Positions 5,399 through 10,493 of a DNA stretch of 64,000 bases are shown piece after piece. Position numbers and translations under genes: made by a program. Each line of letters opens with the position of its first letter. Position 1 is the stretch's first letter. The notes under the pieces are model-generated. The model saw only the letters and a program-made list of their open reading frames with translations. It was not told where the DNA came from and ran no database searches. The DNA comes from Bacteroidales bacterium (GTDB taxonomy: Bacteria; Bacteroidota; Bacteroidia; Bacteroidales; GCA-2748055), in assembly GCA_029931975.1 (NCBI GenBank), contig JAOZQY010000013.1:1-64000 (forward strand), given 5' to 3'.

Positions 5399-6925
5399 TC
5401 ATTCCTGGTTTGCTCCTGGCTCTTCAAATTCACACACCACCCTGAAACCCACATGCAGGCAGTCGGAGTACCACCAGATACTCTTGGGCATCTGGGGATC
5501 TGTTTTCAGCCAGGGAACGCTTCGGGTATAATCCCTGGAGGCACAACGTACATCTTCGGCCCCATCACGGTAGGATCCGCCCCTGACTACATGCTCCTCT
5601 CCTGCTGCAGGTCCCTGAGGATCGAGTAGTACATCTGTGCCATATTGTGCATAGGCATCTTCGGCATACCAGTCTGAACAGAATTCAGCCACATTCCCCA
5701 GCATATTCACCAGTCCAAATGGATTTTCCATTTTTGTCTCAGGTGACACTGACCTGGCTCCGCTGTTTTCCATATAGGCAATGTAGGTGTTTATCCCCGA
5801 TGTATCCACTCCAAAAAGTTTGTTCCTCAGACCCTGTTTTACATAGCGTTTCGGATCGCCTTCAAAAAAATAGGGTGTACTTGAACCTCCCCTGGCAGCA
5901 TATTCCCATTCAGCCTCGGTGGGAAGCCTGTATTTCTTCCCGGTAATCTTGGTCAGCCACTGGCAATACACCTCTGCTGCCTGGTGGGTCATGGTCATGG
6001 CCGGCATGGAGCTTTTCCCCCAACCCTGGTCGGGCGCACCCCACGGAGGGGTAGGCCCCGATATGGCATCCACATCGTCATTGACCACGTTGAGGTAAGC
6101 ATCAGATGTTTTTCCTTTGGCCCCGGTCTGCTTGAAAAAGGACAGGTATTCATCCCATGACACTTCGGTTTTGGCCATAAAAAAGGGACTGATCTCAACT
6201 TCCTTCACAGGACCTTCATTCGTGTTTCGGAAGGGTTCATTTTCCGGACTACCCATCATATATGTTCCTCCGGGAATGGCAATCATTTCAAAGCTTACCG
6301 TTGATCCGGTAATATACTCGGTGAAATTAGTGTGGCCTTCCATCACCCCAGGTTCAGTATAGAGTTCTGTATCAGCAGTTTCAATAATTCCAAAATCCAT
6401 GTTTTTGGCATGCAGCCTGTTGGGGTCGTAATGACCCACGGTAATATGGCAATTGATGCAATGCAGTTCACCGGCCTGTCGTTCATAATAGAGGTGAGCT
6501 TCACGACCTTCTTTAGTCAGCCCCAGGGGATAATTGTTCTGGTGACAATGGATGCAGGAGACTTCGAAGGCATGTCCTTTTGCATATTCGATCTGCGATT
6601 TGGCTTCCCAGTTGAAGCTTTCCGAATCTTTAAAGGTATTCGACCAAAGATCCCGAATACCGGTCTTTGCCTTCTCAGGCAGGTATCTTTCTCCATGTGG
6701 AGGCAAATGACAATCCACACAATGCACATGTATACCTCGTTTGTTGTCGTAATGGGTGGAGAGTTTCCAGCTCTGTGTTGAATGTGGATGAATATGGCAG
6801 GATGCACAATATTCATCTGTGGATGTTTTTATAACTGCTTTATTGCCCAGGAAGATGAAAAGGGCTGTAACCAGGATGCCGGAAAGGAATATCCATCTGC
6901 TGGATTTTTTTCTTTTTGGTCTCAT
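5399..6925 (-). CDS. Tetraheme NapC/NrfH-type cytochrome c fused to an FGE-like domain
   Basis: A 508-residue fusion. After a short basic start (MRPKRKK) comes one membrane helix (about 11-28), then four CxxCH heme sites: CASCH (about 40), CVDCH, CIHCH and CINCH within the first 165 residues, as in NapC/NirT/NrfH quinol-dehydrogenating cytochromes. From about residue 215 to the end is a sulfatase-modifying-factor/FGE fold: IPGGTYMMGS, RLPTEAEWEYAARGG, NMLGNVAEF, VVRGGSYRDG and HVGFRV. The two catalytic cysteines of true formylglycine-generating enzyme are absent, since the SYRDGAEDVRCASR segment lacks them, so the domain is more likely structural or ligand binding, as in GldK. The protein would be anchored in the inner membrane facing the periplasm and pass electrons from quinol to an unknown partner. 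I start it at 6925, not at the ATG 24 bases upstream. Confidence 0.87.
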   Translation of the reverse strand: MRPKRKKSSRWIFLSGILVTALFIFLGNKAVIKTSTDEYCASCHIHPHSTQSWKLSTHYDNKRGIHVHCVDCHLPPHGERYLPEKAKTGIRDLWSNTFKDSESFNWEAKSQIEYAKGHAFEVSCIHCHQNNYPLGLTKEGREAHLYYERQAGELHCINCHITVGHYDPNRLHAKNMDFGIIETADTELYTEPGVMEGHTNFTEYITGSTVSFEMIAIPGGTYMMGSPENEPFRNTNEGPVKEVEISPFFMAKTEVSWDEYLSFFKQTGAKGKTSDAYLNVVNDDVDAISGPTPPWGAPDQGWGKSSMPAMTMTHQAAEVYCQWLTKITGKKYRLPTEAEWEYAARGGSSTPYFFEGDPKRYVKQGLRNKLFGVDTSGINTYIAYMENSGARSVSPETKMENPFGLVNMLGNVAEFCSDWYAEDAYAQYGTDVLLDPQGPAAGEEHVVRGGSYRDGAEDVRCASRDYTRSVPWLKTDPQMPKSIWWYSDCLHVGFRVVCEFEEPGANQE

Positions 6926-7178
6926 AATCAGCAAGGTTAAAGAAAGCAAATTTTGTCCTCAGATTCAAGTCAGATGTATTTGGCACACTTATTTAAATAG
7001 ATTCTAATGTTTGGGATTTATAACTATACTGAAACAGTTATGGAAATAGTACGTATAATTGTTTTGGAATTCAACTGCTATCGGTCCGAATACAGGGCAA
7101 GATATAAGCCAATTTAAAGGCAATCAGTTATTTGTTATAGTCAACATATTTAATATAACTATTAATTGCATAAAACTT

Positions 7179-8072
7179 ATGTGCCCCTCTGTAATTCTCA
7201 ATCAGCTCTCATCAGAAGATCAAAAATTTCTTAATGCACTTGTCAAAAAGGGTGGCCCTGAGCCACATGAATATCTGGAATTAACAGCTATTATTAACAA
7301 CCTGGAGGATACAGAACTGGAATACTTCAGGGATACGATCAAGGAATCGCTCAATGAGAATACCCTGATTGGTCATGGTTATATAAAACCCTTCGGGTAT
7401 CCCGGCGATTTTACCATCATCCATAACATTTATAAGTTGTATGTGAATCCCGATGAAAAATATTCAAACTGGGACAGGTTTTTTCAGGACCAGGCAGGAG
7501 CTCATGCTGTACGTAACAGGAAGGACTATTTTCTCAAACGTTGTGCTGAGGTTGAACAGCAGGAAGGAGATGAGAAGAGGATACTGATCCTTGGTTCCGG
7601 ACCTGCGACGGATGTGAATGAATACATGAGGAACAACCCTCATAGTAAAATCAAGTTTGACCTGATCGATTTTGACCAGAATGCAATCGATTTTGCAAAA
7701 AATCAGAATGCTGATTTTACTGATTCCATTGAATATTTCAAAATCAATGTGCTGAGATTTAAGCCCTATCATTGGTACGATCTAATCTGGAGTGCGGGTT
7801 TGTTTGATTACTTCAAGGACAAACACTTTGTTTATATGATAAACAAGTATTATAAGTACCTCGTAAGCGGAGGTGAATTTATCATTGGGAATTTTTCCCA
7901 TAGCAACCCTACCAGGCGACTGATGGAGGTCTTGTCAGACTGGTACCTGGTTCACCGGTCCAAGTACGATCTGGTCCGTATGGCTCTTGAAGCTGAGACC
8001 AAAGAAGAGCAGGTTGAAGTGGAAATGGAAGAATTGGGAGTGAACCTGTTTTTAAGAATTAAAGCAGCGTAA
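7179..8072 (+). CDS. SAM-dependent methyltransferase, resembling Phc-type fatty-acid methyl ester synthases
   Basis: A 297-residue class I methyltransferase. The SAM-binding motif I is ILILGSGPATDV (about residues 135-146), followed by an acidic strand FDLIDFDQNAIDFA, and DLIWSAGLFDYF as the motif IV region. The N-terminal part holds IKPFGYPGDFTIIHNIY (about 69-85), a signature I associate with proteins annotated as 3-hydroxypalmitate methyl ester biosynthesis (PhcB-like). One base separates its stop from the ATG of the hybrid kinase, and the kinase overlaps the response regulator, so the three form one operon. I use the ATG at 7179 (MCPSVILNQL) because the 40 residues of the longer frame starting at 7059 look like untranslated AT-rich leader. 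The lipid-signal role is inference from the motif and context. Confidence 0.75.
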   Translation: MCPSVILNQLSSEDQKFLNALVKKGGPEPHEYLELTAIINNLEDTELEYFRDTIKESLNENTLIGHGYIKPFGYPGDFTIIHNIYKLYVNPDEKYSNWDRFFQDQAGAHAVRNRKDYFLKRCAEVEQQEGDEKRILILGSGPATDVNEYMRNNPHSKIKFDLIDFDQNAIDFAKNQNADFTDSIEYFKINVLRFKPYHWYDLIWSAGLFDYFKDKHFVYMINKYYKYLVSGGEFIIGNFSHSNPTRRLMEVLSDWYLVHRSKYDLVRMALEAETKEEQVEVEMEELGVNLFLRIKAA

Positions 8073-8073
8073 A

Positions 8074-10059
8074 ATGTTAAATCTCAAATCAATGCTTAGG
8101 GTAAACTCTTTTGGGATGCCTACAACTGGCCAGGACGATTGGAAACTAAATCCTTGGACGCTGGCTTTCTCTGGAGAAATTAAAAAATATGAGAAGGCCT
8201 TCCGGGACGATTATTTTACCCACTCTCTCAATCCGATGCGGTTTTCGCTGGTACTTTCCCTTTTTTTCTTCGGGATTTTTGCTTTTTTGGATGCACTTCT
8301 GCTGCCCGAGTTAAAGAGAATGTTCTGGATTATCCGCTTTGGGCTCATATCACCCCTTCTGACCGGAGTGATTGTATTTTCCTTTACCCCCGCTTTTAAA
8401 AAGGTTATGCAACCGGTACTGGCAGCCTTGATGTATATCACGGGCCTGTCCATTATTGTTATGACAATTTTCGCGGCTAACAAGGCCGGGAACTATACCT
8501 ACTATGCTGGCTTGTTCCTGATTTTCATTATTGGTTATACTTTTATCAAGTCACGTTTTATTTATGCCACCATTGTTGGCTGGTCCATTGTGGTTTCCTA
8601 CTTGGTCGCTGGCATATGGCTCTCCGATACGCCACTGGAGATTCTGATTAACAACAACTTTTTTTTCATCAGTGCCAATGTTATCGGTATGTTTATCTCT
8701 TATTTCATGGAGCAATCGGCTCGAAAGGATTTCTATATGAGGATTTTGCTTGAGAAGGAGCAGAAAAAGGTTCAGGCAGCCAATAATGCGCTTGAAAAAC
8801 GCGTACAGGACCGGACCAGGCTGCTTACCCTTGCAAACAAGGATTTGAAGAAGGAGATTGAGATTAGAAAACGGCATGAAGAGGAAAAAACTAAGTTGGA
8901 GGGTCAGCTGGTACAGCTACAAAAGATGGAAACCATCGGAACGCTGGCTGGTGGGATTGCACATGATTTTAATAATATCCTGACTCCTGTACTTGGCTAC
9001 ACAGAGATGGCCCTGGAGGAGTTATCTCAGGAGAGCACCCTTCGTTATGACATTGAACAGATCAATAATGCAGCACTAAGGGGCAAGGACCTTGTACAGC
9101 AGATACTGACCTTCAGTCGCCAGGTAGATGTTGAAAAAAAGCCAATGAGGCTGGATATGGCGGTAACTGAAGTACTGAAGCTTATAAGGGCTTCTTTCCC
9201 TTCCAATATTGAAATAGTACAGGAACTGGATAGAGAATGCGGAACCGTCATAGCCGATTCTACTCAGATGCACCAGATTATTATGAATCTGTGCACCAAT
9301 GCCTATCATGCCATGATAGGCAAAGGAGGTGTTCTAACTGTCAGGCTGGACACACAGAAAGTGGGAACAAGGCTTCTAAATGCTTCGGACAAAATTCAGA
9401 AAGGAACCTATGTGCGGTTAATCATTAGCGATACAGGGCACGGAATGGATAAGCGAACTGTGGAAAGGATTTTTGAACCCTTCTTTACCAAGAAAGAAGT
9501 GGGCTCCGGTACGGGACTGGGTTTATCTGTGGTTCATGGTATTGTGAGTAGTAGCAATGGAGCTATTGTGGTTGAGAGTGAGCCCGGGAAAGGCTCCACA
9601 TTTATAATTTATCTTCCCCAGCATTCTGAGCATTATATGGAGGAAAAGGATAACTCACAGGAACTTAAAAAGGGTATAGGAAGCATTTTATTTGTGGATG
9701 ATGAAAAAGAAATTACATTTATGGGCAAAAGAATGCTGGAGACTCTGGGTTACACAGTGGATATAAAGACAGACAGCCTGGAGGCTCTGAAGGTTTTCAG
9801 GCAGGATCCTCAGAAATATGATCTTATTGTCACCGACCAGGCTATGCCGAAGATGATGGGGACCGAATTAGTAGTAGAGCTTAAACAGATCAAGCCCGAT
9901 GTGAAGGCTATTATTATTACAGGTTACCAGGAGTCTATCCCAGCCAATGCTATAGAACAGTACGAAATTGCAGATATTATTTCAAAACCTCTTATTCTGA
10001 GTGAGTTTAGTGAATTGATCGGAAAAGTACTCAGCCAGGATAATAAAATAGCTTCATGA
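8074..10059 (+). CDS. Six-TM hybrid sensor histidine kinase with receiver domain
   Basis: A 661-residue membrane kinase. About six hydrophobic helices occupy residues 48-215, without a large periplasmic loop, so the ligand is probably membrane-soluble or sensed within the bilayer. A coiled coil (about 222-285) leads to HisKA with phospho-acceptor H297 in GGIAHDFNN, then the ATPase with the N box (MNLCTNAYHAM), DTGHGMD and GTGLGLS. A receiver domain follows (FVDDEKE start, acceptor D588 in VTDQAMP, Lys in ISKPL). It is translated right after the methyltransferase (1-base gap) and its end overlaps the regulator start by 4 bases (ATGA). The architecture resembles PhcS/LqsS-type quorum-sensing kinases, which also have multi-TM sensors, but six-TM kinases are diverse, so the ligand is unknown. 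Confidence 0.85.
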   Translation: MLNLKSMLRVNSFGMPTTGQDDWKLNPWTLAFSGEIKKYEKAFRDDYFTHSLNPMRFSLVLSLFFFGIFAFLDALLLPELKRMFWIIRFGLISPLLTGVIVFSFTPAFKKVMQPVLAALMYITGLSIIVMTIFAANKAGNYTYYAGLFLIFIIGYTFIKSRFIYATIVGWSIVVSYLVAGIWLSDTPLEILINNNFFFISANVIGMFISYFMEQSARKDFYMRILLEKEQKKVQAANNALEKRVQDRTRLLTLANKDLKKEIEIRKRHEEEKTKLEGQLVQLQKMETIGTLAGGIAHDFNNILTPVLGYTEMALEELSQESTLRYDIEQINNAALRGKDLVQQILTFSRQVDVEKKPMRLDMAVTEVLKLIRASFPSNIEIVQELDRECGTVIADSTQMHQIIMNLCTNAYHAMIGKGGVLTVRLDTQKVGTRLLNASDKIQKGTYVRLIISDTGHGMDKRTVERIFEPFFTKKEVGSGTGLGLSVVHGIVSSSNGAIVVESEPGKGSTFIIYLPQHSEHYMEEKDNSQELKKGIGSILFVDDEKEITFMGKRMLETLGYTVDIKTDSLEALKVFRQDPQKYDLIVTDQAMPKMMGTELVVELKQIKPDVKAIIITGYQESIPANAIEQYEIADIISKPLILSEFSELIGKVLSQDNKIAS

Positions 10060-10493
10060 TGCTTAGAATATTGATTATTGATGATGATCACCACATCTTG
10101 CTGATGACTAAGAAAATGCTTGAACGGACAGGGTTCGAGGTGGAGCTGGCTTCCAATGGGAATGAGGGACTGGAGCTTTTTAAAAGGATGCCGGTTGATC
10201 TTGTGATCACTGATATTATTATGCCCGAGAAAGAAGGGCTTGAAACAATCCGGGCGATGAAAAAGCTGCGCCCGGACCTGAAAATTATAGCCATGTCGGG
10301 TGGTGGAAAAATTTCGTCCGACAATTACCTGGATGCAGCAAAGATATTCGGAGCTACCAGGGTTCTGGGGAAACCGTTTTCACAGAAACAGATGGTTTCA
10401 ATTGTTCATGAATTGCTGGATAATCCTTTGGACGAAAGTCTCTATAAGGAGAAGAGTGATCAAGATGAATTAGAAAAGAAGCAGGGCAGATAG
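10056..10493 (+). CDS. Single-domain response regulator
   Basis: A 145-residue CheY-like receiver with no output domain. The acidic pocket is D9-D11, the acceptor Asp is D53 in LVITDIIMP, and the conserved Lys is in LGKPFS. The last 25 residues are a charged tail. The start codon overlaps the stop of the hybrid kinase (ATGA), implying translational coupling. It would relay phosphate between the kinase and an unseen output, or act by protein-protein contact. Its 3' end overlaps the convergent TauE/SafE gene by 24 bases, so no separate terminator fits between them. Confidence 0.88.
   Translation: MMLRILIIDDDHHILLMTKKMLERTGFEVELASNGNEGLELFKRMPVDLVITDIIMPEKEGLETIRAMKKLRPDLKIIAMSGGGKISSDNYLDAAKIFGATRVLGKPFSQKQMVSIVHELLDNPLDESLYKEKSDQDELEKKQGR

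Follow-up and report, generated by a model that had tools for sequence, protein, structure and literature searches.

The PhcB/PhcS signal class has been described chiefly in Ralstonia and related bacteria. Functionally known members, which stand with the same gene partners, are reported to make 3-hydroxy fatty acid methyl esters that act as diffusible signals (PMC8578825, PMC6989110). On the receptor side, the membrane domains of adenylyl cyclases are reported as lipid receptors, with fatty acids and related lipids only recently named as their ligands (PMC11606603, PMC12505454). Here, we describe a three-gene operon from a Bacteroidales bacterium that bears on both subjects. The operon lies in a stretch of 64,000 nucleotides, hereafter the window (assembly GCA_029931975.1, contig JAOZQY010000013.1, positions 1 to 64,000 of the forward strand), and it encodes a methyltransferase, a hybrid histidine kinase with six transmembrane (TM) helices, and a lone response regulator. 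We are highly confident that the first two are homologs of PhcB and PhcS and that they are functionally linked. We consider it probable that the operon specifies a self-made lipophilic signal of the methyl-ester type together with its receptor. That the signal is a 3-hydroxy fatty acid methyl ester in the strict sense is possible, though we give this less than even odds. In Bacteroidota, a listing-level search of the open-access literature turned up no earlier description of a PhcB/PhcS-type system. The features of the operon are these:

7179..8072, + strand: PhcB-like class I S-adenosylmethionine-dependent methyltransferase, 297 residues, candidate signal synthase (ATG at 7179, stop codon at 8070-8072)
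7395..7412, + strand: codons of the GYPGDF motif (methyltransferase residues 73-78)
8074..10059, + strand: six-TM hybrid histidine kinase, 661 residues (HisKA, HATPase, REC)
8074..8763, + strand: N-terminal six-TM sensor domain, kinase residues 1-230, PhcS / MASE8 / adenylyl cyclase AC_N-like
10056..10493, + strand: single-domain response regulator, receiver only, 145 residues (ATG at 10056)

A sequence-only reading of this stretch had described tight gene junctions, a GYPGDF motif, a kinase with six TM helices and almost no periplasmic part, and a regulator consisting of a receiver alone, and all four descriptions are borne out. Specifically, the open reading frame (ORF) coordinates leave one base between the methyltransferase and kinase genes and a four-base overlap between the kinase and regulator genes, and GYPGDF occupies methyltransferase residues 73-78. 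Pfam places HisKA at kinase residues 290-349, HATPase at 395-516, and REC at 538-646, with His297 as the candidate phosphate site. Hydropathy averaged over 47 aligned rows (the window and 46 of 50 sensor-bearing loci; L076, L083, L106, and L130 omitted) puts the TM segments at residues 59-77, 84-102, 115-133, 147-165, 166-184, and 190-208, and the predicted model of the domain has six long helices joined by short loops. The regulator holds one receiver (residues 5-117), and a Pfam scan detected no output domain in it. Pfam matches to the methyltransferase were all sub-threshold and to methyltransferase families; the N-terminal part of the kinase, searched with the window sequence alone, gave no Pfam match.

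The three genes are kept together in related genomes; had they not been, the sequence-only reading would have counted this against itself. The methyltransferase is present in 14 of 61 genomes, including the source genome (4.76 Mb, 366 contigs, 96% complete): 12 of 18 in the genus, 1 of 10 in the rest of the family, and 1 of 33 in the rest of the order. Six genus genomes are without it, five of them 58-83% complete and one, G013, 97% complete. At each of the 13 loci other than the window's own, the kinase follows the methyltransferase, and the lone regulator comes next in 12; the 13th contig stops within the kinase. A close sensor (at least 63% identity) occurs in 14/14 methyltransferase-bearing genomes and in 0/47 genomes that lack the methyltransferase. 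In one relative (L064:6888-8871), the kinase gene is apparently split into two ORFs of 420 and 234 residues. The source genome itself harbors a second, distant six-TM kinase-type gene (G000:C234, L220; 25% identity), which adjoins a kinase sharing 56% identity with the window kinase over its core. Eleven viral contigs gave pattern matches, and none encodes a relative of the operon proteins.

Named genomes reveal the same pairing in several layouts. These loci rank as the top 80 among at least 576 methyltransferase relatives, selected by likeness to the window, so the finding of the six-TM sensor family in 50 of the 80 is no survey of the whole methyltransferase family. Layout A, with 24 loci, runs methyltransferase, six-TM hybrid kinase, lone regulator; the regulator is present in 21, and the other three contigs end in the kinase. 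Layout B, with 19 loci assigned by sensor position, runs six-TM kinase, (regulator), receiver/HisKA_2 protein, receiver/LytTR protein, methyltransferase, a full order seen in 8/8 loci inspected (Pfam names from L081). Layout C, with four loci (Pfam on two), is a six-TM/PAS hybrid kinase followed by the methyltransferase. L130, L138, and L139 also bear the sensor and stand outside these layouts. In a methyltransferase tree, from which L095, L104, and L116 were omitted, layouts A, B, and C fall within one clade of 52 rows (support 100/98). The sensor is in the locus for 47 of those rows, the window included; three of the other five are cut by contig ends, L091 is cut upstream, and L109 is a clear negative. 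The pairing of methyltransferase and sensor is therefore real and recurs. Whether homologs always neighbor a six-TM kinase, a point raised by the sequence-only reading, has a divided answer: they do in 13/13 loci of relatives, and the sensor family is in the locus for 50 of the 80 named loci, but methyltransferases without a sensor exist. Separately, the Bacteroidales layout-B loci (L080-L107) look like full signaling circuits that include a DNA-binding LytTR output.

For comparison with PhcB, our references were 12 PhcB-type loci, namely that of a Paraburkholderia graminis plasmid (L055) and 11 presumed Burkholderiales loci recognised by their likeness to L055, gene order, lengths, and landmark residues. 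A profile of the type-A methyltransferase (24 loci) matches the methyltransferase in 12/12 of them (E 5.2e-37 to 2.5e-31), and hhalign of type A against PhcB-type gives a probability of 99.9; the profile search that had been proposed thus came out in favor of a PhcB link. Residues G73, Y74, G76, and D77 are invariant in 76/76 aligned rows (the window and 75 of the 80 named loci; L095, L104, L109, L116, and L139 omitted). In a 13-row alignment with one PhcB-type member, L055, the residues invariant in 13/13 are K70, P71, G73, Y74, G76, D77, R112, R114, G207, D210, Y211, G232, N238, W255, and R260. The window protein contains the shared elements of the PhcB-family domain, KPxGYxGD, RxR, GxxDY, N, and WxxxxR. 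R22, a published PhcB landmark (PMC6989110), is present in six of eight methyltransferases checked, the other two having longer N-termini.

The likeness has bounds. At 297 residues, the window protein is without the N-terminal part of PhcB, about 200 residues long, for which no Pfam name was found in two proteins tested. PhcB-type proteins with a clear start have 463-501 residues, and published lengths are 464-468 for PhcB, 368-374 for PhcR, and 336-337 for PhcQ (PMC8578825). In the methyltransferase tree, nine PhcB-type rows form one clade (100/98) and the window falls in a Bacteroidales clade, with long branches. Hence, the description of the enzyme as PhcB-like stands for its homologous domain and motif, and not for clade or N-terminal part. 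Structure prediction, also proposed beforehand, supplied a confident model (pLDDT 95) with the common class I fold, and PDB and structure searches with it named no substrate class. No characterised relative that acts on a non-lipid substrate and is closer than PhcB appeared in the libraries searched, an outcome that spares the sequence-only reading its other stated objection.

Against PhcS-type sensors, hhalign returns a probability of 96% for the type-A sensor (E 5e-9) and 97.6% for the type-B sensor (E 4e-12), with four decoy membrane families at 0.5% or below, and the type-B sensor profile matches 11 of the 12 PhcB-type loci (worst E 4e-4). The relation to PhcS is clear but distant. Within the aligned six-TM domains, R56, D73, R88, Q113, Y143, and R161 are invariant. 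A PhcS-like six-TM kinase thus adjoins the methyltransferase as in Phc systems, a likeness that is weaker by the type-A profile alone. The PhcS phosphohistidine is given as H230 (PMC11960443); among six PhcS-type sensors, it lies at 230 in one and at 231-237 in the other five.

The six-TM domain also belongs with the membrane domains of adenylyl cyclases, on both sequence and fold. The sensor profile's best matches among 177,635 PDB sequences are the adenylyl cyclase AC5 (4.1e-6) and the diguanylate cyclase ImcA (1.9e-4). Pfam AC_N matches 15 and MASE8 seven of the 47 sensor members, and MASE8 also matches three of seven PhcS-type sensors; where the curated cut-off is shown, the MASE8 matches fall below it. 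The predicted domain model (pLDDT 85.9) aligns with ImcA (Z 16.8, 227 residues, 5.4 Å), AC5 (Z 14.5, 228 residues, 3.7 Å), and AC9 (Z 14.2, 208 residues, 3.0 Å); the first non-cyclase structures follow at Z 8.4, and Rv1625c is at Z 7.4. Helical bundles can reach a Z of about 13 by chance, and it is for this reason that the sequence evidence matters. Foldseek alone gave nothing below E 0.001, the PhcS-type profile alone matched no PDB chain, and a literature search for MASE8 listed no paper with that word among its matches.

The pairing extends beyond the order in other forms. In Chlorobi-type loci of a phylum sample (group f52), the methyltransferase adjoins a hybrid kinase with a six-TM domain in 7/8 cases; in the remaining locus, L054, the upstream side is cut off and no such kinase is seen downstream. 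The assignment to Chlorobi is taken from L114 (Chlorobiaceae) and L128 (Chlorobaculum), named loci that carry the same set of genes. Four of these kinases were compared with NCBIfam, and LuxN ranks first in 4/4, with E values of 5e-75 to 3e-99 where the second-ranked model has 7e-37 to 6e-55; every score falls far below the LuxN model's own cut-off. That the Chlorobi-type six-TM domain belongs to the window's family was considered and was not borne out (hhalign probability below 1%). Three Chlorobi-type methyltransferase copies (G241:C48, G127:C100, G209:C5) carry at least one in-frame stop, which suggests decay there. Among five plasmid loci picked from 75 matching records, a six-TM profile that includes PhcS-type seeds matches the protein beside the methyltransferase in four (L055, L056, L057, and L058). 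Apart from L055, the matching genes are these:

L056:2415-4439: Roseateles plasmid, diguanylate cyclase/phosphodiesterase (2e-7), methyltransferase divergent from it
L057:2676-4712: Rhizobium plasmid, GGDEF phosphodiesterase (1e-8), methyltransferase divergent from it
L058:5882-7273: Pseudanabaena plasmid, kinase (5e-28), methyltransferase convergent with it

Many Bacteroidales thus share the pairing of methyltransferase and sensor, and variants of it are present in Proteobacteria, a cyanobacterium, and Chlorobi-type genomes. The window operon is no lone oddity.

We propose the following mechanism. Given its homology to PhcB, the methyltransferase would act on a fatty-acyl substrate, methylating its carboxyl group to yield a lipophilic methyl ester; the likeliest substrate is a 3-hydroxy fatty acid, free or carrier-bound. 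Such an ester should partition into membranes, including those of neighboring cells. There, the six-TM domain, nearly free of loops on the periplasmic side, would bind the ester within the membrane and switch the kinase; we assign it this receptor role because of its homology to PhcS and because adenylyl cyclase membrane domains are reported as lipid receptors. Phosphate could then pass from His297 to the fused receiver, the lone receiver, or both; the domains and residues are present, and the direction is our supposition. With no output domain, the lone regulator would have to act via a protein partner, presumably encoded elsewhere, as has been proposed for PhcR and PhcQ. In other Bacteroidales, at type-B loci, a DNA-binding regulator of the LytTR kind accompanies members of the same methyltransferase and sensor families.

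Several observations weigh against this reading. Identity of the methyltransferase to PhcB-type proteins is only 25% (L055) or 23% (profile alignment), and substrates drift among class I methyltransferases. With only the type-A sensor profile, PhcS is detected in just 3 of the 12 PhcB-type loci, and the published landmarks L161 of PhcS and R154 of PhcQ are present in 1/6 and 0/4 proteins, respectively. Neither partner is confined to the other's company. Sensors occur without the methyltransferase: 7 of the 47 relatives that lack the enzyme have a distant homolog of the sensor and no close one, 12 of the 13 sensor-bearing phylum-sample genomes besides the window's have no methyltransferase match, and the six-TM family is found on kinases and one SpoIIE phosphatase protein with no methyltransferase match at all. 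Methyltransferases likewise occur without the sensor. Thirty of the 80 named loci show none nearby, six of them cut off where it could lie (L094, L095, L101, L104, and L105 end before the expected place, and L091 is cut upstream), and in the phylum sample, the four further methyltransferase loci that were read (L049-L052) all lack a six-TM-family protein within reach. In a sampled proteobacterial class, where 42 of 369 genomes gave any match, mostly weak, 10 of 11 loci inspected have no such sensor near the methyltransferase; only G567 shows methyltransferase, six-TM kinase, and receiver/kinase in order (in its family, 12 of 200 genomes match, 11 strongly). The same methyltransferase domain is also fused to a cyclic-nucleotide-binding part (L052) and to a polyketide synthase (L059). 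Finally, a quick tree gives PhcS a very long branch and places sensors without methyltransferases between type A and types B/C, so a single old pairing does not follow from it.

Among alternatives, the one that survives best, unlikely as we judge it, is that the two genes do form a signal pair and use other chemistry: the methyltransferase would act on a non-fatty-acid carboxylate, a hydroxyl, or a polyketide, and the six-TM kinase would sense that product. The predicted structure of the methyltransferase matches many small-molecule O-, N-, and C-methyltransferases. Outside the sensor-linked clade, moreover, the Chitinophaga methyltransferases (L117, L123, L126, L132) stand beside flavin monooxygenases in 4/4 loci (FMO-like by Pfam in L126, the one tested), as do those of a Dyadobacter-type clade in 4/5 (styrene-monooxygenase domain in L124, the one tested). 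As a separate observation, the Dyadobacter-type loci L122, L124, L127, and L133 also encode a very large protein kinase-AAA-GAF protein, roughly 1,460-1,500 residues long. On an Enterobacter ludwigii plasmid (L059, 2619-5756), a type I polyketide synthase ends, after a carrier domain, in this methyltransferase domain, which possibly serves methyl-ester release; the gene table of that locus holds no kinase or cyclase, and the six-TM profile was not applied there. Against other chemistry, those relatives that share the gene partners and have a known function are reported to make 3-hydroxy fatty acid methyl esters, and the sensor resembles fatty-acid-responsive membrane domains.

We regard it as more improbable still that the methyltransferase serves the kinase system in output or feedback, methylating proteins or membrane lipids in the manner of CheR, rather than acting as a signal synthase. 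The idea draws on L139 (3883-6870), in which one Syntrophaceae protein joins the six-TM sensor, two PAS domains, GGDEF, and the methyltransferase in a single chain, on the cyclic-nucleotide-binding domain of the L052 member, and on a weak CheR match in L055 (E 0.001). It is countered by the position of the methyltransferase, first in the operon as in phcBSRQ, and by the diffusible signals reported for PhcB relatives with the same partners. Lastly, an ordinary two-component system beside a housekeeping methyltransferase, an accident of neighborhood to which the receiver-only regulator (it gives no target) and the sensor-less methyltransferases might point, is very improbable and nearly refuted by the comparative data: we set a hitch-hiking methyltransferase aside because of the sensor linkage (47 of 52 clade rows, in three layouts), the methyltransferase clade, and the Chlorobi-type pairings, with separate pairings in PhcB-type loci and the L139 fusion also opposing it.

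Upstream of the operon lies one further feature:

7030..7057, + strand: TGAAAC-N16-CGTATA box, candidate promoter 5' of the operon

This box presumably resembles the promoters of some extracytoplasmic function (ECF) sigma factors, and we regard it as a candidate ECF-sigma-like promoter. In the form GAAAC-N-CGTAWA (spacer of 15-18 allowed, 16 or 17 seen), it precedes the methyltransferase in 11 of 12 genus loci, and it occurs once in the window against 0.01 expected. It is one among several conserved intergenic blocks, the others lying nearer the divergent gene. The strict pattern occurs once in the source genome, as does its reversed control, so no regulon can be drawn from it. The divergent gene (window 5399-6949) encodes a protein whose NapC/NirT-type cytochrome part is joined to a formylglycine-generating-enzyme part, and it adjoins the operon in 10 of the 11 other genus loci, the 11th being at a contig edge.

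If the operon does make and sense a methyl-ester signal, the PhcB/PhcS signal class extends to Bacteroidales. In our view, the link to adenylyl cyclases matters more than a wider host range: the operon holds both a receptor and its presumed ligand synthase, and this opens the identity of the natural ligand to testing. We speculate, as one possibility that we hold with less than even confidence, that PhcB-type methyltransferases and adenylyl-cyclase-type six-TM domains constitute an old cross-phylum module with a methylated fatty acid as ligand and interchangeable outputs (histidine kinase, diguanylate cyclase/phosphodiesterase, LytTR). If so, a receptor family shared with animal adenylyl cyclases would be genetically tied to its own ligand synthase, which would give direct access to the kind of ligand used ancestrally, and communication by fatty acid esters would take place in many uncultured Bacteroidales.

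How, then, does the operon compare with known systems? LqsS is a six-TM receptor of a plan related to LuxN-type kinases, and the ligands of LuxN and CqsS are made by other synthases. LqsA is not known to be a methyltransferase. The gene order had been likened to a joint Phc/Lqs plan; the Phc half is upheld by L195 and L202, which have the complete order of methyltransferase, six-TM kinase, PhcR-like REC-kinase, and PhcQ-like REC protein, while the Lqs half is a likeness of layout only. The Chlorobi-type partners (L043-L048, L053, L114, L128) share a LuxN-like kinase part; the match to LuxN is confined to that part, and no relation of their six-TM domain to that of the window kinase could be detected. 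The six-TM plan is also described for CqsS, which is reported to replace an adenylyl cyclase anchor functionally (PMC4821796). With AC_N/MASE8 domains (AC5, AC9, and the diguanylate cyclase ImcA), the window sensor shares the same six-TM fold, but it drives a histidine kinase and adjoins a presumed ligand synthase.

Phc itself (PhcBSRQ of Ralstonia and relatives) uses 3-hydroxypalmitic acid methyl ester (3-OH PAME) or 3-hydroxymyristic acid methyl ester (3-OH MAME), and the window operon is not a complete Phc system as such. Its methyltransferase has 297 residues where PhcB has 464-468, identity is 23-25%, and methyltransferase and sensor fall in separate clades from their Phc counterparts. 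Its kinase is a hybrid, and one receiver-only protein takes the place of PhcR (receiver plus kinase) and PhcQ. By comparison, the near version of Phc in L055 has a methyltransferase of 468 residues, a six-TM kinase of 445, a receiver protein of 134, and a second regulator of 344, and PhcB-type loci, leaving aside overextended frames, have receiver/kinases of 384-419 residues and PhcQ-like proteins of 323-344; type-B relatives of the window do encode a receiver plus HisKA_2 protein. A LysR substrate-domain match, such as PhcA would give, was not found in the 96% complete source genome, whereas control genomes were positive in 10/14. The proposal of a Phc-type quorum system thus keeps its footing in homology and linkage and loses it in the PhcB N-terminal part, PhcR, and the LysR-type PhcA match. 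What the two systems have in common is a homologous methyltransferase and six-TM kinase, the order of synthase, sensor, and regulator, and regulators that carry no DNA-binding domain.

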